Assembly: GCA_022575985.1 (NCBI GenBank)
Contig: JAKSXM010000002.1
Coordinates: 17,967,001 to 18,031,000 of the forward strand
DNA from: Anagrus nilaparvatae
Taxonomy: Eukaryota; Arthropoda; Insecta; Hymenoptera; Mymaridae
DNA: 64,000 nt
Direction of reading: 5' to 3'
Positions 711 to 58,529 of this stretch are shown here, piece after piece; the stretch's first letter is position 1, and the number at the start of each line of letters is the position of its first letter. The notes under the pieces were generated by a model. The model did no database searches. It saw nothing but the letters and a program-made list of their open reading frames with translations, and was not told where the DNA came from. A program made the translations under genes and the position numbers.

Positions 711-749
711 TTCTCGCAAATGAAATGATCTTATAAGGATATATAAATA
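711..749 (+). promoter_or_regulatory. PSE-like box plus TATA, copy 1
   Basis: The box TTCTCGCAAATGAAATGA is at 711-728, followed by an 11-bp spacer and TATATAAATA at 740. If it works like a fly U6 promoter, transcription would start near 770. The first T4 run after that is near 798-801, so any short RNA would be about 30 nt or would read on. Confidence 0.55.
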
Positions 750-1295
750 GATCATTTAACTTATGTAGCTTGAATTTACTCCCATTATATAATAATATTT
801 TCGTAAAATTTTAATTGATCAAAATATAAAAACATTAACTCTAATTTCTTAACTATAACCTTTTTGAATTTTCATTTTCTGTAGATGTTTCCTATAAATA
901 AAAGATTTATTCAATTCTTTAGTATACTAGATATGGGTTCGTATCTCGCAGGTTATATAGCGAGCATCATAAGGCTCTAGGTTTTTCATTCGATTATAAT
1001 ATTTTTTATTCGTAACTTTTCTAGAATAAAGACTATATTATCATAATTATTTGCTTTATTGAATTCAGTTATAAATAATTTAAATATTATCACCAACAAT
1101 AAACTAACATTTTCCTGTGAAATATTTGTGAATTTGCGTAAATTGTTTTTTTACTTTTAATTAGTTTATTACGAAAGTTAATTGGAATAATTAAGTTTTG
1201 AAGTATTGAGTTATTATAAATGGTCAATACGTTTTATTTTAAAATTATAACCAAAATATTCTTTAGATATTTTTGATTTGTTTAGAAAATATATT

Positions 1296-1332
1296 TTCTC
1301 GCAAATGAAATGACTTCATAAGATTATATAAG
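1296..1332 (+). promoter_or_regulatory. PSE-like box plus TATA, copy 2
   Basis: The 18-bp box at 1296-1313 is identical to that of copy 1. It is followed by an 11-bp spacer and TATATAAG at 1325. Flanks on both sides resemble those of the copy at 31906, including an upstream ATTGAGTTATTA-like stretch and a downstream AAACGTTATTTA. Confidence 0.6.
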
Positions 1333-1354
1333 TAGATCCATGAAAATTTTTAGT

Positions 1355-1406
1355 ATATTTACTAAAACGTTATTTAATATGGCTAAACTGAGTGAAAATT
1401 ATTTTT
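1355..1406 (+). ncRNA. Hypothetical short Pol III-type RNA
   Basis: This is the predicted transcript of the promoter-like motif at 1296, taking the start 30 bp after the first T of the TATA box and the end at a T5 run (1402-1406). The segment AAACGTTATTTA is shared with the predicted transcript of the copy at 31906. It matches no known RNA that I recognise. Both ends are inferred. Confidence 0.2.
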
Positions 1407-5470: not shown

Positions 5471-5507
5471 TTCTCACAAATGAAATGACTTTACAATGTT
5501 ATAAATA
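5471..5507 (+). promoter_or_regulatory. PSE-like box plus TATA, copy 3
   Basis: The box TTCTCACAAATGAAATGA differs at one position from the commonest form. The spacer is 11 bp and TATAAATA is at 5500-5507. Sequence downstream at 5531-5559 matches that of copy 6 (8186-8214), sharing CATCTAATT and GACATTGTATTTAT. Confidence 0.6.
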
Positions 5508-5892
5508 GAAATAGAAACATCTGCTTTAATCATCTAATTATTGTTGACATTGTATTTATGTTCTCTCTAAAAAAATGGAAAATTAATTTTATTAACAAAT
5601 ATTATTAATAAATCTTTATTTTGAAAATATTTATTTATTATTTAAATCATTAAGTTTGCCTTTGAAATATCAAACAACATTTTCTGAATAATTTATTTAA
5701 TTATTTTCACCACCAATTATAATAGTAAATTAATTATTAACGATTAAAACGTTTTTAAGTACACAACTAATTAAAACGAATGAAAGAAATGTATTATTTA
5801 ACACATAAATTAACCAAAATTACTATTAGAATTCATTATAATATTAATTTTATTAATATAAATAGTAGGGTAATATCAAAGTGAAAATATTT

Positions 5893-5929
5893 TTCTCGCA
5901 AGTAAAATTACTTTACTATGTTATAAACA
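5893..5929 (+). promoter_or_regulatory. PSE-like box plus TATA, copy 4
   Basis: The box TTCTCGCAAGTAAAATTA matches 16 of 18 positions. After an 11-bp spacer comes TATAAACA at 5922. It lies 422 bp after copy 3 on the same strand, and the upstream A/T context (GAAAATATTTT) is shared. Confidence 0.5.
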
Positions 5930-6400
5930 GAAGGCTTGAATTTGTAATAGTTATCCAAAATACAAATATTATGAATCTCTTGTACTATTAAAATTACACG
6001 GTACGTAAATAGTCATCTATAGTTATATGGAATTTCATATCTTTGTTAGCATGACATCGTCAAATACTTATACATTGGTATTTAAAACGATTGCTGTATT
6101 ATTATGTATTGTGAAAATTTAAATTAAAATTTGAGAATATTTTCCATTTTTTGCTTTTGCTGAATAATACACTATCTGAAAAATATCAATTGACAGTTTG
6201 TATTATGACATAAATTCTTTGGTAAAATTAACTTAAAATTATTTAAAGATTAAATGGTTCAAATAAAATAAGTGGATACTTCATATGCATGGTTATATTA
6301 ATTTTCATATTTGAGTTTATACCAAAGTCAAATAAATTAATATTGGTTTTTGAGAAATTTATAATTTATACAAAAAATTTAATAAAATTTATTATTTTAT

Positions 6401-6515
6401 AGGTCTGTTCTTTTTGTCCCAGCTAACTACTTTTTTCTTTTTATGGTAAAAAAGTTAACCCCGGTTTACCATAAAAGGAAGAAAGAAGTTAACTCGATAA
6501 CAAAAAGAACAGACC
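6401..6515. mobile_element. Foldback miniature element, 115 bp
   Basis: It begins AGGTCTGTTCTTTTTGT and ends with the exact reverse complement. The arms continue pairing inward to TTATGGTAAA and TTTACCATAA around a loop containing AAGTTAACCCC. TAT lies on both sides, possibly a short target duplication. It has no coding capacity. Confidence 0.7.
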
Positions 6516-6659: not shown

Positions 6660-6696
6660 TTCTCGCAAATGAAATGACTTCACAATACTATAAATA
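6660..6696 (+). promoter_or_regulatory. PSE-like box plus TATA, copy 5
   Basis: The box TTCTCGCAAATGAAATGA is at 6660-6677, followed by an 11-bp spacer and TATAAATA at 6689-6696. Downstream sequence is unlike the other copies apart from weak similarity to copy 4. Confidence 0.6.
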
Positions 6697-8131: not shown

Positions 8132-8168
8132 TTCTCGCAAGTGAAATGATCTTCCTATGTTATAAATA
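8132..8168 (+). promoter_or_regulatory. PSE-like box plus TATA, copy 6
   Basis: The box TTCTCGCAAGTGAAATGA is at 8132-8149, followed by an 11-bp spacer and TATAAATA at 8161-8168. This is one of the best copies, and its downstream block is shared with copy 3. Confidence 0.65.
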
Positions 8169-8190
8169 GAAATATCTGTTTCCATCATCT

Positions 8191-16900: not shown

Positions 16901-17666
16901 AATTTTTTTTTTGGGACAATTATTATTACAACTGACCTTCCTTTCTCAGATTCAATTTCTCTTGTATAAAATTTTTTGTTGTCTACTGTTTTGCATTATG
17001 AATTTTAAATTAAACACACACACACACATAAATTTTGTTTTTTATAATATTTGAGGTTATGTAATTCAAATGCTTTTATATTATTAACTATTAATAGTCC
17101 TTTAGATATAATTAACTATTAACAAATTATTTTTATACCATATAAAATTTTATAACAAATTGATTTTTTTTGTGTTTGTGTGTGTGTGTACCTTTATTAA
17201 AAAATTGCATAATTTTTCTAAATTTATTAACGTTATTAAAATAAAATGGTTTAAATAAAACGATTAATAATAAAAATAAATTTTTTTTTTTAATTTCAAA
17301 ACATTTAATATGGTTTATTGTTAATTAAAATAATTTATTTATGTATTTAAGGTGGTGTATAGACTTAAATATAATTTTAATATGAATTGGTTCTTTTATA
17401 ATATTCACAAATTTATAAGCACTTAATAATAATTTTTTAATTAAATTTTTGATTATAGTAATTTAATTTAGTGTTTTTTTAAATATTTATTATGTGAAAT
17501 GTTAATATGTAATTTATTTCTTCCTGTATTTCATATTTTTTTAATGGTTTTTAATTTATTCAGTTTTTGTGGTTTTAATGATGAAATTTTGAAATTTGAC
17601 TTGGTGGGTGATTATTGTTGTACATGTATACTATTTTTTGACTTTTTTTAATCCAATGTAGATCTA

Positions 17667-18036
17667 CACTGTAAAAAGTAACTTTCTTATATTAACAAAA
17701 AAAATAGAACATTTACGAAACATTAGTAAATTTTCGAAAAAAATCGTATAATTACTTTTAGTATATCAACAAAAAATTCGAGTATTCTCGATTTTTTTTT
17801 ATAAATTCGCAAAAAAAGTTGATAATTTACCATTTTTTTTCTCGAAAATTTACGAAAAAAGTTGTAAATTCACAAAAAAAAATCAAGAATTTTCGAATTT
17901 TTTGTTAAAATACTAAATTTAATAATAATATAAGTTACGATTTTTTCAAATATTTACAAATTTTTTTGAAAATTTACTAATTTTTCGAAAATATTCTATT
18001 TTTTGTGTTAATCTAAGCAAGTTACTTTTTACAGTG
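17667..18036. mobile_element. TA-flanked palindromic miniature element, 370 bp
   Basis: The termini are CACTGTAAAAAGTAACTT and its near-perfect reverse complement, with TA directly outside both ends (17665-17666, 18037-18038), as expected for Tc1/mariner-type insertion. The interior consists of repeated A/T and TTCGAAAA/TTTTCGAA pieces that fold on themselves. No ORF. Confidence 0.75.
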
Positions 18037-21000
18037 TAGGAAATGTTTATATTTAATTTCTACTGCTCAACATTTTCCCAATAATGTTAAAAGTGATTCT
18101 AATAACTTACTATATTTTGATGTTTTAGTCATTTTTAGTAGAAAAATACTATTATTTTCTAATCTTTCACAGCCAAAAAATATTGGATCAATATTTTCTT
18201 TTACGAAAAATTTAATTTTGATCCAAAACTTTTTGTAAAATACCTAAAATACAGTACACCATAAAGCCTGAATATTTTCCCATCTTGTTTGAATCGTTTG
18301 AACCATTTCACAATCCCTTAATAAATTTAAATATCAATTATACAACGCACAACACCAAACCTTTAATTAAATTAGAGCCCATAGGCTAAAAAAGCTCATA
18401 AAAAAAATTTTTTCAAGGCCAAATATAAACCACAAGATAATAAAAATTTTCGTAACTGAAATTATTTTTTATCTTTATTACACTACTTAATTGAATTTGA
18501 GTTGTAAAAATTACAAGTTAAAAATAAAAATTGATACTTTTAAAAAATGTAATATTTTTATATCATGCCATGTGAAAATTAAAAAAATAAAGAAACAATA
18601 AAAGTATTTTTTTTAATAAATCTGACATTAGAATCATGTGAAAAAAAGTAGTTTTGAAATATCTAAATGATGACTAATTACATATATTTTTTCTTTTTGG
18701 ATTATGACATTTTTTATTTTTGGTTCAATTCATTTATGTCAAAATATTTTTTATCAAAAAAATTAAATCTCTAAATAAAGTATCAAAAATAATAATAATA
18801 GTAAACAAACGTCATAAAAAAAAAATTTCATCACGTTTTTTGACATAAAAATTGATATGGGTGAAAAAAAAAATTATTGTAGCACCTTTTACTTTTTTTT
18901 AAAAAAAATTGATAAAATTTTAAAAGTTTTTAATCATACAGTGGATTTAAAATTTGTACCTTGCAAAAAGTATATATTCGTTTTAATACGAAGAAAAAGA
19001 CAAAAGAATGCAATAAATTGCATAAGAAAGGTATTATTGTCATTTATAATAAAGGTCAGGAACTCGTCTCAACAACATGCACACAGCTGCATGTGCAATT
19101 TTTATTAAAGAAAAAAAATAGCGTTGGTGTTTTACTTTCTAAAGGTCACATTTTAATACGTAATAGTTTTTCTATAATTTTTTTTTAAGAGTATTAAAAA
19201 AGTGATAGTATTTTTATTGCGTGACGAAATCTGTTAAAAAATTAATCAAATATTAAAAATCTTTTAATTATTCGTTTGGAAAAATAAAAAAGATGACATC
19301 AATTGACCTCTCACTTTTTTATTTATTTGAGATTTATTTCTATTTTTTTTCTATTGAAAATATGACCTAGAACCTACTTAGATGTTCATCTTCCTGCATC
19401 TCCTCCTAAAACAAAATTTTCACTTTTTATTATGATATCTTCATTTTTATTTTTGCAATTTCAATTCGTGACTGTTAAGTTCGACTTAGTGTTTAGTATC
19501 TTTTATTGCATAAAAAAATATTAAATTGAATTTTTTTTTTAAATTTGATGATAATGATTGATGCAGTTTTTTTTTTAGAAAGCATCTTTTCTTGAAGGCA
19601 TATTTTTTTAATAATATTTTGAAATTATCTAAAATTATTACGAAATTAAAAAAAACTTCAATTTTTTCACACTAATTTTATGTATTAAAATGTTTAATTA
19701 TTTTATTTGAATTTTTCGTATGATTAATGACACTTTTTTTTTTATGAAAAAAATTTTTTAAATATCATCTTTTTCTGATTGCCAATAAAACGTTCAAAAG
19801 TTTATAAGTTCATTTTGTATTACAAAATTTTTTTAATCATTTTTTTTTTTTAAATTTTTAAATTTATGTTTTTTGATAGGCAATATTTTTAAGAAGACAA
19901 ATTATTACTTGTTTTAGTGATTAAATTGACATTAATAATAATTAATTTATTGCATGTTGAGGAGTGTTTAATAATTTTTCTTGTCATAATAATTTTTCGT
20001 AATTTATATGCTATTTTTAAAATTTTGAATTTAATGAAGGTTTAAAGGTTTTAGATTTATTCGAAGAGTCGATTTTTTCTTTGTTTGATATTTGAAATTT
20101 TATTCAAATACCCAAGTAGTTCTTTTAACAAATCACTTTTAATAATTACAAAGTTAAAAAAACTTATAAATTTTACTTTAAAATGACTTTCAATTTCACT
20201 CAAAACAAAAACTATTTAAACCGATGAAAGTAATCTATCAATAACTGCCAAAATAAATTTTAGTCAAACAAGATCAAGTTTAGATTTTTTTAAATTTAAA
20301 GATTTTACAATCAATTAAAACCATTAAATGATTTGAATCTTGTGAAAATTTTAAGTTTCTATTTTGAGATCTTAGTTAAAGTCACTCAGCTAGCGACTAT
20401 GTGACTTTGATTTTTTGATTCTTTAAAACTATTAAAAACAATTGCTCTCACGCCCTAGATTTTTTAGATGATTTTCCAGAACTTTGTTGTACCAGTTGAA
20501 ATCTAAATGGTTATTTTAATATGTAATACGCGCATTTTTGAAAATAGAAAAGTTTTTCGAGGTTTCTAAGTATGGGAAAATTAGGTAGACATTAAAATAA
20601 TATTTTTATTTACAGAAAAATACTTTCGCTGTAACCACTCAAATAAACTATCATCAATAGCTGCATAATATTAATGCCTGCACACTACAATTTTATGATT
20701 AAATTTGCGTCCAAAAATGTAATTAAAATTACTCACTCAAATCATAACCTTAAAATTCCCACTATCCAAAAACCATACAATTTTAATAAAAAAAAAAAGA
20801 CAGGAAGCACTTAAAAATCCGTTGAAAATCAAATTAGTACAAAAAGAAGCGTTAAAATATAAAAAAAATTATATTTAACCTTCAGAAAGGTTATAAATAC
20901 TTTTTAAGAGGTTAAGAAAGAATATTAAAAAAAAAAGTGCAATAACTTTAAAATATAACATTAAGAAATCATACACTTCTCTTCTGAGTACATAATAAAA

Positions 21001-22863: not shown

Positions 22864-22900
22864 TATTTATACTATTGAAAAGACATTTCACTTGCGAGAA
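22864..22900 (-). promoter_or_regulatory. PSE-like box plus TATA, minus-strand copy
   Basis: On the minus strand the box is TTCTCGCAAGTGAAATGT (22900-22883), followed by an 11-bp spacer and TATAAATA (22871-22864). TATAAATATAAG is shared with the two minus-strand copies that follow. Transcription would run toward lower coordinates from about 22841. Confidence 0.6.
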
Positions 22901-23678: not shown

Positions 23679-23715
23679 TATTTATACACTTGAAAAGACA
23701 TTTCACTTGCGAGAA
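23679..23715 (-). promoter_or_regulatory. PSE-like box plus TATA, minus-strand copy
   Basis: The minus-strand box TTCTCGCAAGTGAAATGT is at 23715-23698, with an 11-bp spacer and TATAAATA at 23686-23679. Box and spacer are nearly identical to the copy at 22864, while the sequence beyond the TATA box diverges. Confidence 0.6.
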
Positions 23716-24624
23716 AATTTTTATTTTGAATAATGAAAATATATTTTGTAAATTTCACTTTAAAAGTCGCCAAAAATCCATCCCTTAGCACAGCTTAAAA
23801 TATGAATCTTTATAAAAATAAAAGTATAATTAGACAGGTCAATATTTAATTTCAGAAAAAATCACTTTATAAAAAATTTATTCACTATTCAATACCTAAA
23901 AATGTAAAAGTAATTTTTATAATTGTTATATTTTCATAATTACACGTTGATATATTTTTATCAGATACTTAAACATTAATAAAAAGCATAACTACTCTGA
24001 TTATCTGCGTGAAAGTAAATTAAAAAAAAAGGTAATTATTACGGTTAATGAGATTTTTTTTTTCAATAATAATATTTATTTATATAACATTAACGATATA
24101 TTTATAGATGATAATGATTAATTTAATGAGTCTACGTAGAAAATAACCTCACTATTTTAAATTATAAGGAAAATTACATTTTATCAAAATTTTAAAACAC
24201 ATCTTATTTATTTTAAATTATATACTTACATGCTTTAAATTATCAAAAATTATCATCTTGATAAAAAGTATGAGAGAAAATTTATGCGTATTTTATGAAA
24301 TTTACATTTTCGATAACATTTTTATTATATATTAAAGACTAATAATTCTTTTTTTAACCTTCATTCATCTTCCTTTTTTTTTTAATTTTTTGCTGTTTTC
24401 ATCGTTTATTCAGCTTGTTATTATTTATTTTTTATAAAATGTAAAAAGACTTGTTTTAAGTTATCATTATCCATTATTTTTGCTCATTTTCTTGCATTAA
24501 ATACGTTACAGTTTATACTAATAATTTGGGTTTTTGAAGCTACTAATTTTTTTTTTTAATTCGTGAATTTGCATTAATTTTATTATGCTTTAAATTTAAA
24601 ATTTTACAGAGTTTGCTTTTGGTA

Positions 24625-24683
24625 AGCCCTTTCTACATCAGATTAAAAATCGATATTAAATCTGGTCATCTTTAAAATTTATA
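24625..24683. mobile_element. Single arm of the AGCCC foldback family
   Basis: It begins AGCCCTTTCTACATCAGATT and stays aligned with the left arm of the element at 60887 through TAAATCTGGTCATC and TTTAAAATTT. The opposite arm is absent, so this is a solo or truncated copy. Confidence 0.65.
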
Positions 24684-24951: not shown

Positions 24952-24988
24952 TATTTATACCCTTGAAAACTCATTTCACTTGCGAGAA
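24952..24988 (-). promoter_or_regulatory. PSE-like box plus TATA, minus-strand copy
   Basis: The minus-strand box TTCTCGCAAGTGAAATGA is at 24988-24971, with an 11-bp spacer and TATAAATA at 24959-24952. It is the third of three same-strand copies within 2.1 kb. Confidence 0.6.
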
Positions 24989-31905: not shown

Positions 31906-31942
31906 TTCTCGCAAATGAAATGATTTCATAAGGTTATATAAC
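31906..31942 (+). promoter_or_regulatory. PSE-like box plus TATA, copy paired with 1296
   Basis: The box TTCTCGCAAATGAAATGA is at 31906-31923, followed by an 11-bp spacer and TATATAAC at 31935. About 100 bp upstream and 60 bp downstream align by eye with the copy at 1296. The two are paralogous units. Confidence 0.6.
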
Positions 31943-35502: not shown

Positions 35503-35677
35503 AGGCACAGAGGATAACACCAAGAAGTCCACGTGCTAGTAGAAATCCAGCTGGTCTTGAATTTGAGTGTCCTGAAGAATTTGGTTATTATCCACATCCA
35601 CGTGATTGCACACAATATTATGTTTGTGTTTTTGGTGGTGCGTTACTCGAATCTTGTACTGGTGGACTAATGTACAG
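35503..35677 (+). CDS. Chitin-binding (peritrophin-A/CBM14) protein, internal exon A
   Basis: This exon encodes the first four cysteines of a CBM14 chitin-binding domain. The acceptor follows a pyrimidine-rich tract ending TTATTACAG, and the donor is TACAG|GTAAAA. The exon begins with the last two bases of a codon and ends with the first two of another, leaving 57 whole codons. They open AQRITPRSPRASRNPAG, a basic Pro/Arg/Ser linker, and then enter the domain at ECPEEFGYYPHPRDC, followed by TQYYVC and the fourth Cys in LLESC. With exon B the cysteine spacing is C-x12-C-x5-C-x9-C-x12-C-x7-C, which fits peritrophin-A. The family binds chitin in cuticle or peritrophic matrix and is secreted. A single domain with low-complexity flanks points to the CPAP1-type cuticular class (inference). 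No signal peptide or start codon is visible, so at least one upstream exon is missing or unrecognised. An acceptor 8 bp further in (GCACAG) is possible but has a poorer context. Confidence 0.9.
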
Positions 35678-36942
35678 GTAAAAAATTTAAATTAATATGT
35701 TGACTTTTTTTTTTCGTCAGTGTATCCTTCAATAAACAAAAGTGTACGTAATAATGTCAACTAAATCTCTTGTTAAAAGAACCTTTTTTTTAACATAAAA
35801 TTTTAATGTACTCAAACAGAAAGTACATAAAAAAGGACTTTTTAAAAATACATTTTAATCAATATAAATGCACTTGTTAAGATTGACACATTTTATGTCT
35901 TTAAAAAAACAGTAAATAATTAATTGTCCAACTCTATTGTTTTGCATACTTTTTGTAAAAAATCCCATTTTAATTAAAAGGAAAAAAATGTTGGTTCAAA
36001 ATTTATTTCGAGTAGTATGATTCAATTAAAATTTATTTCTGTAAGTGCGTGTAAGTTGTATTTATTTTAGTTTTTTTTTTTGTTTTAAAAAAAAATAGAT
36101 GAGAAGTCTACCTTGAGGACATTTTTAAATAAAATAAATTATATATAAAAACCTTGAGTTAAAAAAGAAATAAATATTATTTTCGTATGTTTTTGTTATT
36201 TGATACTTAAAAATAATAAAGTATGTTAATTGAATAATATGCCCAATTATTTTGGTTTACGAGGCTTTTTTTAAAAAATTTTAATATTAATTATAGTCTG
36301 AGAATTTAGTTGAGATTTTAAGGTGGCTTGTGTTTGTATAAAAATTTTTGGGCTCAGTTTGATCTGTTTAAAAAATATCACTAAGATACCCTTCTTGTAT
36401 TTCAAGGGGTGTTCTGATCTAGAAGAGCAGGGACCAGAATTATTAGATAGGGTTTCTTAGGCTCTTATATTTTAAATAATACTTTTGATTCAATTTTTCA
36501 ATTGAACCAAAAAGTTATGGTTTACTTCATATTTTTATCATAAATAAGCTCCATAAAGAACTAGGTCTCTTTTTTATTAATTTTATAATCACGATATTCA
36601 ATAAGCCAAGTACCAATTTTTGGTCAAAAATGACTAATAGCTATGAAAATTACAGTTTTTAAAATAAATAAGTTTTGTAAATCTTCTTCTTTATTGAAGT
36701 TTTAAAAAGATTTTTATATAAATCTGAAATATGAACATTTAGTTGTTAGAGGTGTTATTTTTAAAGAACGTTTCGCATGGAATAGAATAATTATTTAACT
36801 TAAAAAATTTTTTTTATTTCTGGTAAATTTTAGATATATTAAAAAATTATTTAAATTTATTGAAAATAACTCAAACTCCTTACAGTTTTGATAAAATTAA
36901 TATATTTTATGTAACAACCTAAAATACCTATAGATGTCGCTT

Positions 36943-36979
36943 TTCTCATATAAGAATTGGCATTCCAATATTATATAAA
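36943..36979 (+). promoter_or_regulatory. Diverged PSE-like box plus TATA, AGATGKCG subfamily
   Basis: TTCTCATATAAGAATTGG is at 36943-36960, followed by an 11-bp spacer and TATATAAA at 36972. The box is preceded by TAGATGTCGC (36931-36940). The whole unit is repeated at 37556-37602. The box matches only about 12 of 18 consensus positions, but the spacing and the paralogue support it. Confidence 0.4.
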
Positions 36980-37565
36980 CAGTTTAAATGCTCACGTATT
37001 TTTGTGACAATTTTGTAAAATAAATTTTTTAACCAATATTATTTTATAACTTTTACTTGTCGGATTGTTTGGAAGTTAACTATACTATTAAATGGTTTTT
37101 TTACCATCTTAAATTTGCTGTTTTTGATAACAGTCACTAAAAATTCAAACATTCTCATATAAAATTATTTAATTTGTTTTTAAAATATTATTTTCAATTT
37201 ATTGTATTTAAATTCTAAATTTTAAAAGCAAAATTCAAGCTGAACAACCTGAAATTGTAGGCTAATTTTTTAATTACTGTTTATATTTTTTATGAATACA
37301 AATTTTTGAATTATAAACAATTTTTTGTGTTTATCGCACTAAAATTTAGCAACTTTCAACAAAAATTACATAATACCTTGCAGAGTCATTTTTTAGTACA
37401 GTATATAACTAAGATTAATTCCTAATTAAATCTTCGCTATTCGTGTACTTCAGATAAATTTTATTTCAAAATAAAACTTTTTCAAACTTATTGATATTCA
37501 CTTGAATAAATAATAATTTTACTAAAAATTGAATATCTTACAAAAAAAATATCTAGATGTCGCTT

Positions 37566-37602
37566 CTCCCGTACAAGAATTGGCATTTCAATATTATATA
37601 AG
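37566..37602 (+). promoter_or_regulatory. Diverged PSE-like box plus TATA, paralogue of 36943
   Basis: CTCCCGTACAAGAATTGG, an 11-bp spacer (CATTTCAATAT) and TATATAAG, preceded by AGATGTCGC. It aligns with the copy 620 bp upstream from the AGATGTCGC box to beyond the TATA box. Downstream sequence is only loosely similar. Confidence 0.4.
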
Positions 37603-45184: not shown

Positions 45185-45223
45185 CTTATATATATACTGT
45201 AGAAGAATTTTTGTTTGTAAGAA
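45185..45223 (-). promoter_or_regulatory. Weak PSE-like box plus TATA, minus strand
   Basis: The minus-strand box TTCTTACAAACAAAAATT is followed by an 11-bp spacer and TATATATAAG. It is preceded by AGATGGCGC (near 45231-45239), as in the other members of the AGATGKCG subfamily. The box is poor, and the TATA match sits in a TA run that allows several registers. Confidence 0.25.
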
Positions 45224-46639
45224 ATTAAAGCGCCATCTATATTTTTACTTTAATTTACCAGTTTTTAGATTTGGTGAGCGAAAAATATTGTTTATGGTAT
45301 CATAAAAAAAATATATTGATTTAATTGTACTTATAGGATAGGAAAATACTACTTTTTTTTTTAATGGAATTTTTTTAACGCTTTATACATAATTCACTTA
45401 CTTTTTACCTTATTTTTTGTTTCAATAATCAAAAAATAAGTTGACAAATGAGAGAATCGTTTTAAAAGTTGATTAAATTTAAAGTGGATCTCTTTTTTTC
45501 AAATATTGATATCTGAAATTCAATTTGTAATATTGTAATATTATTTGTAATGTTCTTATAGAAATGTAAATTAAATAAAGGCATTTTTTAACTTGTAAAC
45601 AAAACATCGAATTACTGGACCCTAAAGGTTCAAATAAAAATTTAAAAAAGTAAATACGATGTGAAAAAATTTTATGTAACAATTTCATGCCCTAATTTTA
45701 TGAAATAATCGCATTACCAATAAATCTGCTATAAAAATATTCGATATGCAAAAAAAAAAAAAAATCAAAAAAAAATTTCACAATTTTAATCTTTTATAAA
45801 AATAAAGCAAGAAAAAAATAAATAAAAATAATCGATTATAATTCGACTTTACAGTGCACTAACCGACAGACGTTGATGTTTTAATTTATAAAAGTTTTTT
45901 AAAAAATGTATAGGTATATAATACACAACCATATAATAATCATAAAAAATAATCTTGTTAATAAAAAAAATACAGTAATTTTCCTTAAAAAAAAAAGTAA
46001 GTAAGTAAAATTTAAATAAAAAAAAAATCACGTAATCTTTTATAACAAAAGGCTTAAAATAATAAAAAAAACTTCCGTAAAAAAATTTTTTTCTATTTAT
46101 TAAAAATGTAAAGTAGTAGTCTTATAATAAACATAGAAAATAAATTACACATTTATTATCTTGAGTGAATAATCATAGTTAACACGTAATTAGTATTCAT
46201 TAAAAAAAAAAAATTTATGTGATGAGAATAATTATTGATGATAAAATAGTATGGAAGTAAAAAAATCGTTTAATGTAAATATTATTTATTATTTAATGTG
46301 TCTGTTAAATGTAATAAAAGGTTATCAGTTTTATTAAAATAGCTATTTAATTTTATAGTAATTGGTATAAATATATAAAATGAAAAGTTTTTTTTTAAAT
46401 TACTATTTAATTAAAATGTTTTCTTTAAGATTGTACGAATAATGTTTATAGTTATGGTGAATATGGATGGTTCTAAACAATTTTTCGAGCAATTTTTTCA
46501 AGAACTTTTTTTTTTTATTAAAGATAAACTTTGATCAAGAACTAAATAAACTAAAAATATAATTTTTATAAAACTTTAAGAAAAATATTAAAAAGAGAGG
46601 GGAGATACATAATTTAAGATATATTTTAAATTAAAATTT

Positions 46640-46676
46640 TTCTCGCAAGTGAAATGACCACTAAATGATATAAATA
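46640..46676 (+). promoter_or_regulatory. PSE-like box plus TATA
   Basis: TTCTCGCAAGTGAAATGA is at 46640-46657, followed by an 11-bp spacer and TATAAATA at 46669-46676. It is one of the cleanest copies, 180 bp before the hAT-like element at 46859. TATAAATATAAG is shared with the minus-strand trio near 22.9-25 kb. Confidence 0.65.
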
Positions 46677-46858
46677 TAAGATAATTTTTCTTTGGTTAAA
46701 TCGTTAAATCGTACATATTTAAAAAAAATTAATGTTATTTATTATGAATCTTTAATCTAAGTAAGTTATTATCAAATTAAATTATCATTACCGTCTGTTT
46801 CTGCGTAATTTAATTTTATTCAGTTTCATCGTAGTTTATGAACTGAATTCAATAAGCT

Positions 46859-47304
46859 AGGGATGGGCGATACTGGTCAGGTATCGAGTATCGGTGGTAT
46901 CGATATTTAGATTTAATATCGATACTGAGCATCGATATTTGAGTCAAAAATATCGATATTTTATAGTATCGATACTCTATAATCGAAATCAAAGTTTTTA
47001 AAGAATTTTAGCAGAAGACAGAAGCTTTTTTAATGATCAAAACAGATAAGATTGAATTTAAATGTGCTAAATGTTGCAATTATAAGTTATCACAAATAAA
47101 TAAAATCATTTTTTTTTAAACAGATTTTTGACCTTTTTGAGAAATATTTATTAACAAAATTTATAATAATTTTTTCGATACGATACTGCCTGAAAATATC
47201 GAAGTATCGAAGTATCGGTTACCAGAAGTATCGAATTAAAATATCGATATTTACGCTTTCTAAATATCGATAATTTCAAGTATCGATAAATATCGCCCAT
47301 CCCT
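46859..47304. mobile_element. hAT-like element packed with TATCGATA palindromes
   Basis: The termini are AGGGATGGGCGATA and TATCGCCCATCCCT, typical of small hAT elements. I count seven TATCGATA palindromes and one CATCGATA inside. AATAAGCT lies directly before the left end (46851-46858) and again at 47321-47328, 16 bp past the right inverted repeat. This could be the 8-bp target duplication if the element really ends at 47320. No transposase ORF. Confidence 0.75.
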
Positions 47305-47563: not shown

Positions 47564-47600
47564 CTCTCGCAAATGAAAAGACTGCGAGATAGTATAAATA
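47564..47600 (+). promoter_or_regulatory. PSE-like box plus TATA
   Basis: CTCTCGCAAATGAAAAGA matches 16 of 18 positions. After an 11-bp spacer comes TATAAATA at 47593-47600. A T7 run lies about 70 bp further on, giving the best-delimited candidate transcript in the window. Confidence 0.55.
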
Positions 47601-48773: not shown

Positions 48774-48869
48774 TCACGAATTACAAACATGCGATTGGCC
48801 TCGTAACGTTGATTGTCCTGAAAACAGTTCTCAATCCAAGGACATCGATGATGATCCGTTGCTGGAAAG
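48774..48869 (+). CDS. Chitin-binding protein, internal exon B (end of CBM14 domain)
   Basis: A 96-bp exon sits between the acceptor TTAACTTTCAG and the donor GAAAG|GTAAGA. Joined to exon A the split codon reads Ser, and the frame continues HELQTCDWPRNVDC, supplying the fifth and sixth cysteines of the chitin-binding domain. The motif CDWP before the last Cys is typical of arthropod peritrophin-A domains. An acidic stretch follows (SKDIDDDPLLE) before the split Arg codon that leads to exon C. Both neighbouring introns exceed 13 kb, yet the phases match exactly, which is the main reason to trust so short an exon. Nothing in it looks broken. Confidence 0.9.
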
Positions 48870-49856
48870 GTAAGAAAAATAATTTTCAACTAAAAATATT
48901 TAAATAAATTTATATCCAATTAAAATTGTTTAGAGTGAGGGAGGGGGGGGGAATAAAAAAAGAAATTTAAAATTATTTAAAAATATTTAAGCATGTCTTA
49001 ATATTTATTAAGTATAATTAGTTTGACTTATAAATCAATTAAAATATATGTCAAAATAAATTTGTACGTAATTATTTCATAGATAACTTTCATATTTTTT
49101 TCTCTGATATTACGTATTGAACGTAATCTAAAAGAAAAAAAAAAAAAGTTTGATGGAAATGTTTATTTTTCTCTTTTATATTGATTAATGATTAAATTTA
49201 TATATATATATCTTCAAAAAATACGTTATAATTATATATAGGGAGTTGCATAAGACACACATAAATTTATATAAATACAAAAACGTGATTTGTTTAGTAT
49301 ACATCAATCATGTATTATTTTTTTGATTAACTTAAAAATTTTTAGTTATACAAATAATTTACTGGATAAGAGTACGTATGATTAATAAAATGATTAATTT
49401 TTTTTAAATATATGGATAGTTTCCTGGAATTTTAGAAGAAAGTGTTTTTTGACGATTTTTTTGGTTAAGGGTGCATTGATAATTGATAAAATTTGAGTGT
49501 AGGTCTTAATTAAGTGGTTAACGCCTGATCGACATTTCTTGGACAAATGGAATTTTCAATATAAACTGATGTATATTTTGGGCTCAAAACCATACCTAGG
49601 CGGTTGATATTTCCATTTCAAAAGGGTAAATTATAACTAACTTTTTGACAAAATTTGAAATATTTTTCAATCTACTTCAAAGGTTGATATTTCAATTTTT
49701 GGAGGTTGAAGCTCAAAAAAGATTTCGCAAATAGAAAATTTTACCCAAACCACCTATCGTGTGAGGTTTAAGCTTTAAATATTAAGTATTAATTTACTTA
49801 ACAAGTTCGCCCACTAACTCCTTTAAGCATCCCCCAGTGAGATCTGACATGAGAAG

Positions 49857-50605
49857 TATATCGGTAGTTCTTAGCTATTTTTACCCAAGTCTTGAGGTCG
49901 ATGTCTTGAATTTAAAAAAGTAATTAAATTTTACTACTTTTTTATTCTATTTATTCTTTTGATTTTAGGAGGTTACTTTATTTTTCTTCTTTTCACAGCG
50001 TCATGGAGGCCTCCAAAAGTTTACCCAGTAGGGTTTTCAACGTAAAATATTCTGAGAAATCCAAAAATCAAGTCAAAATTTTCATGTTCTGTCAGAAAAA
50101 ACTAGAAAATCGGAAAATTCAGTAAATAAAACATTTTCAAAATCAGTTTTTTGAGCTTAAAATTGGTTTTTATGCACTTAAAAGGCAAAAAAGGAGTTTA
50201 ACAACATGAAAAGTATGGGAAAAAAATATTTTAAAAAAAAGTGACGCTTATCGAGAAATTTGTATTTAAAGGTTTTCTTTAGTTTTTCCGATTTTTCGAC
50301 TTTTTCTGAGATTTTTCCGAGGAAATATAGCCAGATTCAGATCGGGCGAGAAATTTTTCTACCTACCTTTAAACAAAAAATATTTTTTAGGGCGTTCAGA
50401 AAATAAAATGCAAGTGGGTGGCTCAGAATTAAAAAAAAATCAAAATTGGAAAAACAACTGCCAAATCGGAACCAAGCCACCTAGAGCCTTGAAAATTGTC
50501 CGGTTAGCGTATTTTTATATACCAAAAACAGTGCAATTGGTATTTTTTAAATCCAAGACATCAAACTCAGACTTGGGTAAAAATAGCTAAGAACTACCGG
50601 TATAC
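49857..50605. mobile_element. Inverted-repeat DNA element, 749 bp
   Basis: The ends GTATAYCGGTAGTTCTTAGC pair over about 60 bp, including CTATTTTTACCCAAGTCT. The interior is less A+T-rich than the intron and includes a 60-codon open frame at 50408 that I regard as non-functional. No transposase motif is recognisable, so it is a non-autonomous element of unknown superfamily. Confidence 0.7.
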
Positions 50606-51605
50606 ACATTTGATTTTTTACCTTTTTCCTAGTACTAGTAATCATTTTCGCCTCAAATCAAGTATAATTTTTGCTTTAGTCGCAATGGGTTAAATCTCTG
50701 TTATCAAAGTAAAATCTTTGAAGTTGACAATTCTATAATTTTTTCATGAAGTCTTAGAATACACTTGAACTAATGATATTCACCAATAAAAATCTGATCT
50801 GGAGTCCAAGAAATGACAAAGTTTATCCATAGCCATAAATTATAATTTAAACACACAAATTTGAAGACCTCCCCTTATTAGATTCAGTAAAAAAAATCCA
50901 AAAATCGACTATGCCTAAATTACTTAAATTTTCCCATATATAAAAAACATAACTGTTACTTTTTTTTTTCTCTAAAAATTGCATTATATTTTATAATTAT
51001 TTAAAATATTGTAAATTGTAGGTGTTTATCATATAATAATAATTATATATGTCTATTAATCACTACATGTCGGTATACAGTCATAAATTTTTGACATTTA
51101 CAACTTTTTTTTTAAAAACTTTTTTACTATTTATAATAAGAAAAAACTTGTAAATTATATATTTTCAAGTTATTATTATAAAATATTAAATAATCAATAC
51201 TTATTTATTATTATTATTATTATTCTTTTTTTTTTCTTACATAATTTTAGCATAATTTTACTTCATAAATAATTATTAATACATTTTTTTTTATTATAAC
51301 CTAAAAAAAATTGAACGGTAAGATATATATACCGTTTTTTTCGTTAATACTTAGTTTTTGTATTACAGGAAATAATATTTTTTTGTATAGTCTGAGCGAA
51401 AATATGGAAATATTTAAATGCAATTTTTGTGACGTGATAGATTTTGAAGTAAATATGACCGTTTTTGGGCTTAAATTAGGCTACTTGCCAGATTTAACCG
51501 TTTGAAATATTCATTGTTAGTTAAAATGAAAATTCAATAAAATCAAAATTAGATTTACAGTATTTGATCTTGATTTTTATGCCAGTTAAAGAAGAAGTCT
51601 TAGCC

Positions 51606-52140: not shown

Positions 52141-55130
52141 AGCATCTGCACTAATCGTTTAATTTATTAACTCTTTAACCAAAGCAATTTTCAGCTCTCT
52201 TAGACATTAAAATTATCTCAAAAATTAATTTATCAAACTTATAAAATAATTTACAAAACTTAATTCAAAAATTTCTTTAAAAATCTAAAATACAAGTCCG
52301 AGTTTAGCTCAGACTACCAATAAAACTGCATTATCACTAAAAATTCCTCTAAATACACACACGCACATAATTACAAACACTTTATTTTCATAAATTAAAA
52401 AAGTATAAAAAAAAGACACCAAAGTGAAAACAAAATGCATATTTCCTATATTTATATATTAAAATGTTTAATGTTGTCCACCCTTTTACACGTATAAATA
52501 AACATAGTAATTATATTTATAATAAAAAAAACTTTCTTTATTGAATTTTAATGTATATAATAAAAATAATAACACACACACACAGAAAAAACAAGTAAGT
52601 TGCTTTAAGGCAATTATATATCACACCTCAATATTATTATTTTTAACTGATTAAAATATTAGATACATAGTTTAAAATTAGAAAATTTTCACTTAATAAA
52701 ATGTACTCTATAGAAAATTATTTATCGTGTTGTCACTTACTTATTTATTTATTTTTTTAACCGGGCGTGAAAATTATTAAAAATTATATTGTTATGCAAT
52801 TTAATGATATTAAGCAAGCGAAAAAAAATACTCGCAGGTTATTATAGTAGTACTTTTTTTTTGTACCAATTTTTGTGTATCGACTATATAGAAAGTACAC
52901 GTATATTGTCTCTGAATTTATTAAATAACAAAAAATATTAAATTTACCAGTACATTAATTTTAGACTCTATAAAAAGCATTTAATTATTTATAAATATTT
53001 GTTTTCTAGTTACGTAATTTTAAAAAAAATTGCATAAAAATTAAACGGAAAACGAAATAAATATTGATCGTATGTAATTCGTATAATTGAAGGTTTTTAT
53101 GTATAAGCTTGAGGTAATTTATATGTATTTTACGAAATATTGAAAAAAATCCATCACTTATTATAAATATTTTAATGATGATGTTAGATGATTGTAGTTG
53201 AAAATAATGTTTTTTGTAAAAAAAAAAAGTAATTGCCGTGTATTTTAGATTTTAATTTAAGTGAAATACTTGTTGGCCACGAAAGTGTTTTTATTTTTTT
53301 AATAGAAATATGTATAGGATAATTATTTTTTTAGTGTGTATATTAGAGTGGGTATTGTTTTCGATTTTAAGGAAATTAGGCTTTTTTTGACGTGACATTT
53401 TTGGGTCTTACGACTTATTCCCTGGCTAAATTTATAGACTCGAACCTCCTGTGTTTTTATATCATTACAGTTTAGGTTATAATATTTATTTATGATTTAA
53501 AACACTTGTAAGTAAAATAACATAAAACCAACAGAATTTTTGGTATTTAGGCAGATTCTGTACAGAATTTTTATTTTCTCCTTTTTTATTTATAGGATAT
53601 AAATTGCAGAAAATTCTAATTCAAGTTTTAAATTCCTCAAAAAATCTTACTGTAGTTCCCCCAGATTGTTTTTTTAAGACAAAATTTAGATATTTCTAAA
53701 AAACCGTATGTTTCGTAAATACTTAAATAAAAAAATTAATTTTTTTTTATTTGGTTTTTTCGTACAGCGTTTCATAAATATCTGAAATTTCCCTTAAATA
53801 GGGTACTTTTGTAAAGTTTCCCAAATATTTCGATAATAGAGACAGAATTTCCCATTTTAATCTGATAATAGAAAAATAAGTTCCAGAGATCCTATCCAAA
53901 ATCTGCCCAAAACCCAAAAATTCAATTGCTTTTATTAGTGAATAAAATTTTGATAAAGTAAGAACCAATCTAATATACATAAATAATATAGTACATAATG
54001 ATGCTACTAAATTATATATATGACTTTTTAGAAAGGAAAAATATATAATATTCGAGAACAATTGAAGCCGCAAGGTCTCATCAAAATAAGCGGTTGCAAT
54101 CGTCTTAACAAATAACACTCTAAACAGAACCGCCCTCGCTTAACACCTACAAATCTTTTATACATACATATTTACTTATTTTATTCTCTTCTTTATTATA
54201 TAATATCAACCTATTTTTATGTTTTTACATCAGATTATAAAATTTGGATTAGTTTTTTATTATTTTTTTTTAATTTCAACATCAGATAAATTTATAAAAA
54301 TTAAAAACATTTTTATATTATGCAAAATTAAGTACTATGAGATAGAAAAATTTATTTTTTATAGGTTTGTTTTTTGTTGTTGTTTTTTTAAATAATTGTA
54401 TAAGTACATATAATAAAAGAAATTTATGGTGAAATATTTGAATGGAAAAATTTAAGAGTTTTTTTTTAATATTATTTGGGTTAAATAAAAATTAATTTAT
54501 AGATCAACATTTATTTTAATAAAAATTTTCTTATATTTTCATATTTTTGTTCAAATTTTTCATAAATAGTCATAAAATGATATAAATGAAATTTGTGGTT
54601 TGCTGTAGGTTACTTACATAGTGTAAAAATACTCTGTAGCTATATGTCATTTTTAAGGACAATGTTTTAGAATTTAATTTAAAATAGAAATTCATTTTGA
54701 AGCTTTATAATAATTCTAGAAAAAAAATAACCAACACTTTATTGTTAATTTAATTTAATTTCCTGTAGAAAACGAGCAAGTTATTCAAAAAAGACTATAT
54801 TTAGTAAAATTTTACATAAATAAGCAGAGACAAAAACTCTTAAATCCAGTTTCAAACAACAGATGACATAAAAAATTTGATGAAAAAAGAAAGAGATGAT
54901 ATAGAAAAAATTAATAATTTTTGTAGTTTAGAAGAATTCTAAGTAAAAATTACATTAAAAATAATAACGTAATACCGCACTACTCGAAACTAAAAATTTT
55001 TGATAAGATTCCAAAAAAAAACATTTTGTAGATCCAAACATTAAAGTTAAAGATACAATTATAGAATTTCCAATTATTCATTTAAGAATTTATTTTATAT
55101 TTTTTAAAACATACAAATTTTAAATTCCAG

Positions 55131-55167
55131 ATTATATAAGTTTTAAAATCCTTTTTTTATATGAGAA
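55131..55167 (-). promoter_or_regulatory. Diverged PSE-like box plus TATA, minus strand
   Basis: The minus-strand sequence TTCTCATATAAAAAAAGG is followed by an 11-bp spacer (ATTTTAAAACT) and TATATAAT, and preceded by CAGATGGCG. It is paralogous to the copy at 56371, which has the identical spacer. CTGGA(A/T)TT(T)AA follows both TATA boxes. Confidence 0.4.
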
Positions 55168-56370
55168 AATACGCCATCTGTATATGATCAAACAAAGTAG
55201 AGTTTTTAAATTTTTACTTTTTCTTTGTTTTACTTTTAAATACTTATTTAAATATGATAAAGAAATAGTTTTTAAATATATTTAATTCTCCACTTTCTAT
55301 TAATTACAAATGTTCATAATATTGCAAAATACGGTAAAGTATTAATAATTATTAACTTGTATTCATGTTTAATATTTATTGTTTTAAAGTCCCGATAAAA
55401 GCGATGCAATTGCGATTATTGACTTCGCTCCGTATTTTTTATGTGTATCCCAGCTGGTAAATGTGTTACCGTATAACCAAAGTATAAAAAAACGAAAAAA
55501 TGTTACCCTAAAATTAAAAACAATATTAGTCCTACTCCATGCCATCACAAACATGATTCAAAACTTACAAAAATACTTACAAAAACCATTTTGACCAATG
55601 ACACCGAAAAGCAAGTTCAAAAAGTATAAGTATTGAAAAGGGCCAAAAAAACCATTACTCCAATTACCCATCTTTGTTTGATATATTCTTCTGAATTTTC
55701 AAAAACAAATTAATTTTACAAAATTGATCAATTTTAATAAATTTACTTACGATTACAGTCATAAAAAATACACATTGCTGAATTTATTTAAAATATTATT
55801 GGTTAATAATTTATTCTAAGAAATAATAAAGAAAATAAATTGCAAACAAATTAGTTAATGAAAATTTTATTGCATATGAAGTAAAAAAAAAAACTAATTT
55901 TTTTATGAATATATTATATTGTATTATAGTTGTTTAAACTTTTTATAAAAAAATAGATAATATTTTCTGACACTTATAAAAGCGCGCGCTTATAGTAACA
56001 ATAATAATTTATATTTTGATATCGTTAAAATTTTGATAATTTTGCTCGCTGTATAAAATATTAAATTACTTTGATTTTTCTTAATTCAAAATAAATAATT
56101 TTTTTGATAAAAATTACCGTAACTCACATTCTGGCAATTTCAGTATTCAATGTTTTGGAATTTAAAATTTGTTAATAAAAAATTTTAAGATACATTTTTC
56201 TATCCTTAACTGATAAGTTATTTTATAAAATTCCACGAAGAATTCGGAATAATTTATTTTCAATCTAATTTCTATCTTTTAAATTTCTAATAAAAATTTA
56301 ATATTTAACATAAATTAATAAAATTGAGTTTTAAATATTCATAAATGTTCAATAAAATACTTAAATCCAG

Positions 56371-56407
56371 CTTATATAAGTTTTAAAATCCTTTTCTTTT
56401 GCGAGAA
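56371..56407 (-). promoter_or_regulatory. PSE-like box plus TATA, minus strand
   Basis: The minus-strand sequence TTCTCGCAAAAGAAAAGG matches 15 of 18 positions, followed by an 11-bp spacer and TATATAAG. It is preceded by CCAGATGGCAG. It links the diverged AGATGKCG subfamily to the main family because it has both the CTCGCAA core and the upstream box. Confidence 0.5.
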
Positions 56408-56844
56408 AATCTGCCATCTGGATATTGAAAGGGAACTATTCCGTCGTGAAAAAGTATTTTTAAATATATTTAATTTTATTACTTTTCTTTGTTTATCTTT
56501 CTACACAGTTAGATTGTTTTGCTTGAAATTTCAAACCATTCAAGGAATTCATCAGCGTTGTTTTTAAATATTCATTTAAATACTTTTTTATTATATAAAT
56601 CTGAAATATTTTTTATAACTTATTATTTATATCAATTCTCACCTTTTATAAAATGATGAAAATATTGACCTACACATAATGTTATTAAATTTATTCAATA
56701 TTCGTGGCCTAAAAAGTAAAGAAAATAAAAAATGGCTCAAAAATTTGTAACATTCTTTTTATAAGGCTAAGGATTGTATGTGATGTTTATTTGTCAATGG
56801 TAAGAAAAAACTTATAACCGGTTTGTGAAAACACAACCTAAATG

Positions 56845-57240
56845 CATGGAACATGTTTAGTTACAACCGTGGTTACAACTGAGTATTAGGAATAATGCAA
56901 ATGTTATTCAACATTACAAAACAATTTGCTATATTTATAATTTGTAATTATCACCTCTCTAGCTGTTAAGAATCTAAATCCAAACTATTTTGATTCCCTA
57001 AACGCATATTATTCTAGGTCCCTAAATTAAAAAATTATTCTAAGTCCCTAAAACCGAATTGTCCAAGTCCCTAAATCGATATTATTCTAAGTCCCTAAAT
57101 CCGGATTCTTCTCAAAGTTGAAATTATTCTAAGTCTTGTTTGACCCCCTCCCCCACCCTTAAATCGGACAAATTTGAACCGCCCTTACTTAATTTTCTAT
57201 TTATGAGGTACCCCCTCTCTATAAACATGTTCCATGTTAA
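56845..57240. mobile_element. CATGGAACATG-ended element with internal tandem repeats
   Basis: The ends are CATGGAACATGTTTAG and TAAACATGTTCCATG, the right end followed by TTAA. The interior has about five imperfect copies of an AAGTCCCTAAATC-type unit spaced near 25-30 bp (57000-57140), then TTGACCCCCTCCCCCACCC. Related copies lie at 60120-60226 (partial) and 61197-61408 (inverted, shorter). TTAA at an end suggests a piggyBac-type target. Confidence 0.6.
57000..57140. repeat. Imperfect tandem repeat (TCTAAGTCCCTAAA unit)
   Basis: ATTATTCTAAGTCCCTAAA recurs with variations (TCTAGGTCCCTAAAT, CCAAGTCCCTAAATCG, TCTAAGTCCCTAAATCC), inside the CATGGAACATG-ended element. Confidence 0.7.
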
Positions 57241-58492
57241 CGTCTTTGCTCAGTAGTGACCAGTGAGGAAATAAGTACACCCTGTGGTTTCTAAGAGGTC
57301 TAAGAAGTATGAATAGTGAGCAAACAAGCTTTAAAAGACTCCTGCCACCTAAGAGAACCATTCGTGGACAAACGTCCAAATTGAATAAAATTTCTTTGGT
57401 CCCTTTTTGAAATTTTATAAACTGTTAGCTACCCTTAAATTATGGCTATATAAAAAATATTTTTTACATAATTTTATTCTACACATACAAAAAAAATCCA
57501 ATTATTTTTTTGTATTACATAAAGTTTAAATTAGTCATGAATTTTTATAAATTAATTATCATAAAAATTCTTTATTAAAAAAAATAAAAACTAGAGTAGA
57601 AACAAAAATAATTACGTAAAACAAGTTACTTTTAAAAAAAAACAATGGATATACCTATTTTTTTAAAAATACAATTAAAATTTACAAAATAGACTAGAAG
57701 AATTCAATTATTATTTTTTTTTGAAAAAAGAGAATTTTTTATATATACTTTCTTAAAAATAATTTTTTATAAGTGAAAAAAAAATACAATTTATTTTTAA
57801 CATAAAATAATTGTATATTAAAAAAATACTAAAACTTGTTTATTGCTGCTAAAAATTAATATTAAAAAAAAATAATATGTTGCTATTTTTTGTATAAACT
57901 ACATTTTTGGAAAATTTCTTAAAATAAAAATGAAAGTTAGAAAAATATTACTTACAAATTATATGTGTGTAATCGAGGCATGCACATACTAAATCTTTGC
58001 ATTATGAATAACGGATTATGTGAAATTTTGTTAAAATTATGAAAATATTGGCTAAAAATTCACTCTTTTATTGGGGGTAAAGGACATCTGCAGAGGAAAA
58101 TTTGAGGTTGAAATCATGATTGTAAAAATATACTTTTAAAATTTATTCTGTATTCATTAATTGCAATTTAAAATAAGTAGCATCGAGCCAGCTATATGTT
58201 GTCATCTTGGTTGTCATTAAGAATAAACACGACTTTAGAAATATTCGATTGCAATTAAAATTTATCCAGTTCGTCTACACGACTTTGAAGAATTAAAGCT
58301 ATTTGCTAGACAGATTTCCCTTGAATCGCATCTACCAAGACTGAAAACTTTCGCAATGTATAATAAAAGTTTACTCTATAATAATCATTCTGCAGCTATG
58401 TGAAAATGTCCCTAATTCTCTATAAGAGTGTAAGCAATGAATATTTGCTTTAGTATGTAACCCATCTATCGTAAAAGACTGCGTATATTTAT

Positions 58493-58529
58493 TTCTCGAA
58501 AGAGAAATGAGTTCTCATCTCTATAAATA
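58493..58529 (+). promoter_or_regulatory. PSE-like box plus TATA
   Basis: TTCTCGAAAGAGAAATGA matches 16 of 18 positions, followed by an 11-bp spacer and TATAAATA at 58522-58529. The surrounding 300 bp is less A+T-rich than most of the intron. The downstream sequence AAAGAAGCGGTGTCAC is unlike that of the other copies. Confidence 0.5.

Follow-up and report, generated by a model that had tools for sequence, protein, structure and literature searches.

Seventeen SNAPc-type promoter-like units in 64 kb of a hymenopteran genome as candidate drivers of short, diverse non-coding RNAs

Insect type 3 promoters of RNA polymerase III (RNAPIII, Pol III) are described as a proximal sequence element A (PSEA) with a TATA box, an arrangement that is used by the hymenopteran telomerase RNA gene (PMC9841428). 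In the fly U6 promoter the PSEA and the TATA box are 12 bp apart, and PSEA positions 5-8 are given as the most conserved among the insect PSEAs analysed there (PMC4227766). Insect MRP RNA genes are reported to have a proximal sequence element (PSE), a TATA box and a poly-T stretch, and insect RNase P RNA genes to have neither a PSE nor a properly placed TATA box (PMC4287351). In nematodes, the motif of the loci for PIWI-interacting RNAs (piRNAs) is derived from a small nuclear RNA (snRNA) promoter; such loci in Pristionchus are intronic and occur in either orientation, and their precursors end within a low-melting zone, and in Plectus sambesii Pol III snRNA loci are described with and piRNA loci without a TATA box (PMC6436959). 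Here we describe a family of PSEA-like boxes coupled to TATA boxes in a 64-kb stretch of the genome of the mymarid Anagrus nilaparvatae (contig JAKSXM010000002.1, positions 17,967,001 to 18,031,000; hereafter the window, meaning the whole stretch analysed), which we read as candidate SNAPc-type core promoters.

A preliminary description of this DNA had listed 18 copies of the promoter-like unit, with a constant 29 bp from the start of the box to the start of TATA. Seventeen of these were found in the window as described, on both strands, and the distance of 29 bp (an 11-bp gap after the box) was present in 17/17. The 18th, a weak copy listed at 45185 with box TTCTTACAAACAAAAATT from 45223 on the minus strand, gave a matrix score of 7.2, within noise, and nonetheless has the upstream element of class B described next. 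Minus-strand coordinates given earlier were TATA-side ends, and the boxes themselves begin at 22900, 23715, 24988, 55167 and 56407. Two subclasses make up the 17 copies: 13 near-identical copies of class A (711, 1296, 5471, 5893, 6660, 8132, 31906, 46640, 47564 and 58493 on plus; 22900, 23715 and 24988 on minus) and four looser copies of class B (36943 and 37566 on plus; 55167 and 56407 on minus), to which the weak 45223 minus copy also belongs. Class B boxes are 3 to 7 mismatches from class A and are preceded at 11-15 bp by AGATGKC[GA], an element with six occurrences in the window, five of them at this position 5' of class B boxes when the weak copy is counted. The class A box alone would not reveal three of these four class B copies, which are at 6-7 mismatches. 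The copies are as follows.

711..747, plus strand: class A box TTCTCGCAAATGAAATGA, 11 bp, then TATATAAA.
1296..1332, plus strand: perfect class A box with TATATAAG; paralogue of 31906.
5471..5507, plus strand: class A box, 1 mismatch, with TATAAATA.
5893..5929, plus strand: class A box, 2 mismatches, with TATAAACA.
6660..6696, plus strand: perfect class A box with TATAAATA.
8132..8168, plus strand: perfect class A box with TATAAATA; likeness to 5471 runs to about +90.
22864..22900, minus strand: class A box, 1 mismatch, with TATAAATA.
23679..23715, minus strand: class A box, 1 mismatch, with TATAAATA.
24952..24988, minus strand: perfect class A box with TATAAATA; top matrix score, 41.7.
31906..31942, plus strand: perfect class A box with TATATAAC; 77% identity to the 1296 region over 292 bp.
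36932..36979, plus strand: class B, AGATGTCG element, box TTCTCATATAAGAATTGG and TATATAAA; host-gene intron.
37555..37602, plus strand: class B, AGATGTCG element, box CTCCCGTACAAGAATTGG and TATATAAG; host-gene intron.
45187..45238, minus strand: weak class B, outside the 17, with AGATGGCG, TTCTTACAAACAAAAATT and TATATATA; score 7.2.
46640..46676, plus strand: perfect class A box with TATAAATA; host-gene intron.
47564..47600, plus strand: class A box, 2 mismatches, with TATAAATA; host-gene intron.
55131..55179, minus strand: class B, AGATGGCG, TTCTCATATAAAAAAAGG and TATATAAT; antisense in a host-gene intron; score 17.8.
56371..56419, minus strand: class B, AGATGGCA, TTCTCGCAAAAGAAAAGG (3 mismatches to class A) and TATATAAG; antisense in a host-gene intron.
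58493..58529, plus strand: class A box, 2 mismatches, with TATAAATA; host-gene intron.

The recurrence of the unit was assessed without a matrix by binning boxes on both strands by their mismatches to the class A consensus TTCTCGCAARTGAAATGA and scoring TATA[AT]A at +29. At 0-2 mismatches the TATA sequence was present behind 13/13 boxes and at 3 mismatches behind 1/2 (56407 minus, a class B copy), compared to 0/3 at 4 mismatches and 0/16 at 5 (together 0/19), 1/106 at 6 (36943), 6/458 at 7 (37566, 55167 minus, the weak 45223 minus and three others taken as background) and 14/1705 at 8. The consensus was derived from these very sites; the gap at 4-5 mismatches is independent of that origin. By matrix, 16/17 sites scored 24.2-41.7 and the 17th (55167 minus) scored 17.8, inside the range of maxima (9.2-21.3) from a null of ten third-order Markov sequences, a comparison that is partly circular as the matrix was trained on the tested sites. 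Seen from the TATA side, a box with at most 7 mismatches precedes 9/72 occurrences of TATAAATA in the window and 6/88 of TATATAA[AGC] at the 29-bp spacing, and all 15 were matched to listed copies. The motif is also contained in 6/17 direct-repeat families of the whole window (D1, D2, D3, D5, D6 and D7). Class A stands out absolutely from background in mismatch count. By this count and by the matrix against the Markov null, an origin by chance was rejected for class A, and for this class the earlier claim of non-chance recurrence is upheld.

Conservation was found to be confined to the box and TATA. When class A copies were compared pairwise in a fixed register (loose blastn of the flanks was swamped by A+T-rich noise), identity reached 0.895 for the box, 0.853 for TATA and 0.486 for the spacer. 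A less conserved fringe borders the unit (0.566 at -7..0 and 0.405 at +37..+45); beyond -7 and +45, identity equalled the expectation from composition on both sides. When one copy per related group was used, the box was at 0.87-0.91 and the spacer at 0.39-0.43, compared to 0.27-0.28 expected. This profile, which bears out the earlier statement that the promoter-like part is what is conserved, is better explained by selection on core promoters than by the decay of a repeat.

The box was compared to the fly PSEA, taken as the 21 bp ahead of the GGTACC linker of the U6:96Ab probe printed in PMC4227766 (TAATTCTCAACTGCTCTTTCC). The TCTC of PSEA positions 5-8 is present in 16/17 copies, and the gap to TATA is 11 bp in 17/17 copies compared to 12 bp in fly U6. 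The likeness to the fly U6 PSEA that had been proposed thus stood for the core and the near spacing but not for the 21 positions as a whole, and it is on core and spacing, not on overall similarity, that the putative SNAPc-type membership of the units is based. The preliminary description had also suggested a comparison with the RNase P PSE of the species, which is not apt because insect RNase P RNA genes are without a PSE.

No known RNA had been recognised behind the units, and this was confirmed, as no Rfam family was matched at gathering score over the window. Relaxing the threshold to E up to 1 gave five matches, all to microRNA (miRNA) models below cut-off, and in no case did a match start directly behind a TATA box. 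Three of them fall on a palindrome at 60903-61021; the other two occupy opposite strands of 6422-6493, 0.5 kb downstream of 5893. ARAGORN detected no transfer RNA in the window. Telomerase-template-like words were present at +50..+350 in 0/17 copies; in the genomes of most insects, sequences that begin at a PSE and include a template-like region can be predicted by the thousand, a difficulty that the authors of PMC9841428 describe. Coding sequence was likewise not apparent. Pfam searches (E up to 0.1) of 24 three-frame reads of 8 regions following all 17 sites gave no match, and the longest downstream open reading frames (ORFs; 400 or 800 bp) were not above those of random anchors (P(high) 0.83-0.92). 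An all-against-all comparison of 594 ORFs yielded 9 pairs, of which several cover the motif itself, one of 38 residues lies behind the paralogues 36943 and 37566, and the rest are elsewhere.

The downstream regions do have an A+T-rich valley in common. It lies at +80..+119, counted from the box, where GC is 0.149 compared to 0.228 for the window (P 5e-5 for the bin, 5e-4 after the bin scan, the bin being chosen post hoc and the anchors partly related). In 10 group representatives the valley had a GC of 0.130 (P 1.5e-4), and it was also distinct (P 0.002) from the same position behind 145 TATA sites without a listed box (GC 0.205). With a putative transcription start some 28 bp past the first base of TATA, the valley would correspond to approximately +20 to +60 of the transcript.

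We propose, with a probability of roughly one half, that these units are a family of SNAPc-type core promoters driving short, diverse non-coding RNAs. Each would be a compact two-part promoter in which SNAPc binds a PSEA-like box and TBP a TATA box 11 bp further on; a short non-coding transcript would begin about 25-30 bp past the TATA box and end early, in the A+T-rich zone roughly 20-60 nt past the start. What the DNA shows directly is the conserved architecture with its fixed spacing, a conservation profile like that expected under selection, no detectable coding sequence or known RNA gene, the A+T-rich valley and the grouping of copies. SNAPc as the binder, the start site, the polymerase (II or III), the shortness of the RNAs and indeed that they exist and have a function are what we infer from it. 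The units are located in introns, and perhaps also between genes, of a very GC-poor insect genome, on both strands, with small same-strand groups that would have arisen by tandem duplication. Selection would keep the promoter and leave the transcribed sequence free to change, as expected if the diversity of products or the act of transcription matters. Pol III rather than Pol II is possible as the polymerase, and the set may mark a class of short RNA genes not described before.

Several observations weigh against this proposal. An snRNA-like RNA gene was not found downstream of any copy at the Rfam gathering score; consistent RNA folding was not found downstream of the 17 copies (at 100 nt, one z of -2.9 at 24988 minus and other z values of -1.6 to +2.3); and no start-site motif was detected, the sole outstanding column beyond +45 being a C at +50 (8/17, P 0.00026), which loses significance once some 400 column-base tests are taken into account. 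Besides the post hoc choice of its bin and the partial relatedness of its anchors, the valley has no high-GC zone ahead of it (GC 0.21 at +40..+79), and the boxless TATA sites are also slightly low at its position. The class B copy 37566 has TCCC where TCTC is expected. Over the whole element, identity to the fly U6:96Ab PSEA was 5-10 of 21 (8 for the class A consensus), which is at chance level, as 10% of all 21-mers in the window reach at least 9 of 21. This low identity is weak evidence, because rapid evolution of snRNA promoters in insects is reported (in the title of a 2007 paper by Hernandez). There was no excess of T-run terminators (first T4 run at a median of 41 compared to 27 for random anchors; T-runs are common in A+T-rich DNA), and therefore Pol III in particular, which had been suggested earlier, is not indicated. 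Fly Pol III PSEAs are described with T at position 19 and C at position 20, and Pol II PSEAs with G/A and G (PMC4227766); class A combines a Pol III-like T with a Pol II-like G at these positions, so that the polymerase is not told by this mixture.

The alternative that survives best, although we regard it as somewhat unlikely, is that the units are ordinary Pol II TATA promoters of fast-evolving small spliced messenger RNAs or long non-coding RNAs that use a sequence-specific factor other than SNAPc, with class B and its AGATGGCG as a messenger RNA-type promoter. The recurrence of AGATGKC[GA] (5/6) ahead of class B boxes would suit such promoters, as would the plausible splice sites and short ORFs in some downstream stretches, such as an ATG exon some 0.7 kb downstream of 56407 minus and a minus-strand open frame of 130 residues (53747-54139) that follows 55167 minus at a distance of about 1 kb. 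By contrast, downstream ORF lengths were not above random and no Pfam domain was matched, 0/12 candidates scored as a homologue of the 130-residue frame, the few ORF pairs (9 from 594) included several over the motif itself, and copies within groups are separated by only 422-1472 bp. These ORF and Pfam checks could still miss a gene whose exons are remote or change fast.

A chemoreceptor gene behind class B was considered for the 130-residue frame, which looked gustatory-receptor-like; this candidate was rejected, with no Pfam match at E up to 1 and no homologue among the 12 candidates scored. The frame is located in very A+T-rich DNA. Also on minus, two short frames at 55385-55700, about 0.7 kb after 56407, are separated by a 70-bp intron-like stretch (MGNWSNGFFGPFQYLYFL...) and are a possible small spliced gene.

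Quite improbable, in our view, is that the copies are remains of a repeat family that had captured an snRNA promoter. Several copies are indeed alike beyond the motif, including 1296/31906 (77% over 292 bp), 36943/37566 (65% over 417 bp), 5471/8132 (80% over 120 bp) and 55167/56407 (71% over 150 bp), with further extended likeness between 5471 and 5893 and in the 22900/23715/24988 group. The earlier statement that sequences after TATA mostly differ is thus correct for most flanks but not for the four pairs. Copies are also grouped (spacing P 0.02), and neighbours less than 1.5 kb apart are on the same strand in 9/9 cases (permutation P 0.003), which indicates local tandem duplication. Duplication occurs, yet the likeness that box and TATA have kept is entirely gone from most flanks; class A copies in the window do not align as one element past the motif, and their flank identity falls to composition beyond -7 and +45. 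A repeat origin is weakened because conservation drops sharply in the spacer between box and TATA: a repeat does not decay into a 37-bp unit with a diverged middle, and one that had spread recently would keep its spacer too. Moreover, no class A box of intermediate decay with TATA was detected (the 1/2 at 3 mismatches is the class B copy 56407 minus; 0/19 at 4-5). Compared to snRNA-derived or promoter-bearing interspersed repeats of the short interspersed element (SINE) type, the units are alike in their dispersed copies and some related pairs but differ in having no body shared across class A, a diverged spacer and no element ends found in the window.

Least probable, to a degree that we give it little weight, is a conserved protein-binding site beside an A+T-rich element (enhancer, insulator or replication site) rather than a transcription start: 7/17 copies are intronic and AGATGGCG may resemble Pho/YY1- or CTCF-type sites, but the second half of the unit is TATAAATA, TATATAAN or TATAAACA at a fixed distance and on the same side in 17/17 copies.

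Prokaryotic and viral relatives of the unit were also considered and rejected. Exact box matches were present at 5 loci in viral contigs, none with TATA at +29, and a looser box and TATA pattern matched 7 loci in viral contigs (five in one shared stretch) and 12 in prokaryote genomes, which were taken for chance. GC around these looser matches was 26-59%, the stricter pattern gave 0 matches, and the core of the U6 gene was found 0 times in the viral contigs.

The window has a GC content of 22.8%, and its right half is spanned by a plus-strand insect gene (35503-62762) with one CBM_14 (peritrophin-A) domain that is split by a 13-kb intron. A second intron of similar size (about 13 kb) follows the CBM_14 domain, and the gene has a conserved C-terminal stretch, SDRQQRVYRGQPSTIGQVARDRDG. 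These two introns hold seven of the 17 copies as well as the weak copy, in both orientations. Exon boundaries were read from sequence and homology as follows.

35503..35677, plus strand: host-gene exon with the first part of CBM_14; ends AG/gtaaaa.
48774..48869, plus strand: host-gene exon with the second part of CBM_14 (SHELQTCDWPRN...).
62417..62762, plus strand: host-gene exon (...DRQQRVYRGQPSTIGQVARDRDG...), 3' end provisional.

Among the best 120 of 222 host-gene homologues, an organism was given for ten, nine insects and one shrimp, and the best-scoring of those with an organism name, among the matches listed, were hemipteran (a psyllid and an aphid). A protein of Microctonus hyperodae (Braconidae), fifth among the matches listed, has RASRN, DPLLER and RQQHQ in common with the host gene where others differ, and homologue P0003 has these residues in part. 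GC content at third codon positions (GC3) was 0.17 in the frames of the two longer host-gene exons and 0.38 in the short one. The most GC-poor arthropods described before PMC10978632 are, according to that paper, two braconids, Aphidius ervi (GC3 15.5%) and Lysiphlebus fabarum (10.7%). Taken by themselves, the homologues and the base composition would suggest a GC-poor, aphidiine-like braconid as the source, or less probably a hemipteran.

Other elements were noted in the window. A palindrome at 60887-61037 has 67-bp arms, 90% complementary and 17 bp apart, with the sub-threshold miRNA-model matches on both strands, and is perhaps a small mobile element; one arm recurs 36 kb away at 24623-24683 (97% identity over 61 bp). 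About 200 bp after promoter 46640, the plus strand at 46840-46960 has GGGATGGGCGATA followed by clustered TATCGATA-like words, a stretch that, by its resemblance to such ends, may be a DNA transposon end. An inverted repeat at 17664-18039 has 85-bp arms (89% complementary, 206 bp apart) and a related copy (72%) at 26302-26393. Positions 49801-49911 (minus) and 50508-50690 (plus) form a short, peptide-like inverted duplicate (KTWVKIAKNYRYT / QTWVKIAKNYRYT), probably an old repeat, and a tandem array of a 24-bp unit (5.8 copies, 71% matches) is located at 56974-57112.

If each unit makes an RNA and the density of 17 per 64 kb held elsewhere, the genome would have some 26,000 snRNA-type promoters per 100 Mb with unannotated products. 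Insects would then offer an example of snRNA promoters put to new use for a large repertoire of small RNAs, and the nematode model of promoter motif plus pausing zone would become testable in another phylum. Even without piRNA products, the copies would provide a natural series for how a PSEA and TATA unit selects its polymerase. Among the papers listed by the literature searches, assessed from titles and opening lines of abstracts and with preprints outside the scope, none dealt with SNAPc-driven small-RNA families in insects.

Two described systems are closest. To insect type 3 or SNAPc promoters (U6, hymenopteran telomerase RNA) the units are alike in a box of about 21 bp with a TTCTC core, a gap of 11-12 bp and TATA, and unlike in their many copies in 64 kb, the absence of a recognisable RNA gene behind them and the remainder of the box, which is unlike that of the fly. 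To the motif-dependent piRNA loci of nematodes of the Pristionchus type, they are alike in the many units with one snRNA-like motif and mostly diverse downstream sequence, in their position in introns on both strands and perhaps in a low-melting zone after the predicted start. They differ in their TATA box, present in 17/17 copies and described as absent from the piRNA loci of Plectus sambesii, and in the YRNT start motifs of the piRNA loci, which PMC6436959 describes for nematodes. The analogy drawn in the preliminary description therefore gains from the intronic position on both strands and perhaps from the A+T-rich zone after the expected start, and loses by the TATA box. That a hymenopteran insect, independently of nematodes, turned the SNAPc promoter into genome-wide intronic loci for single small-RNA transcripts with freely diversifying products, piRNA-like but with TATA and possibly transcribed by Pol III, is a speculative extension that we consider unlikely. 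By analogy, the units may work like nematode piRNA loci without being members of that class.

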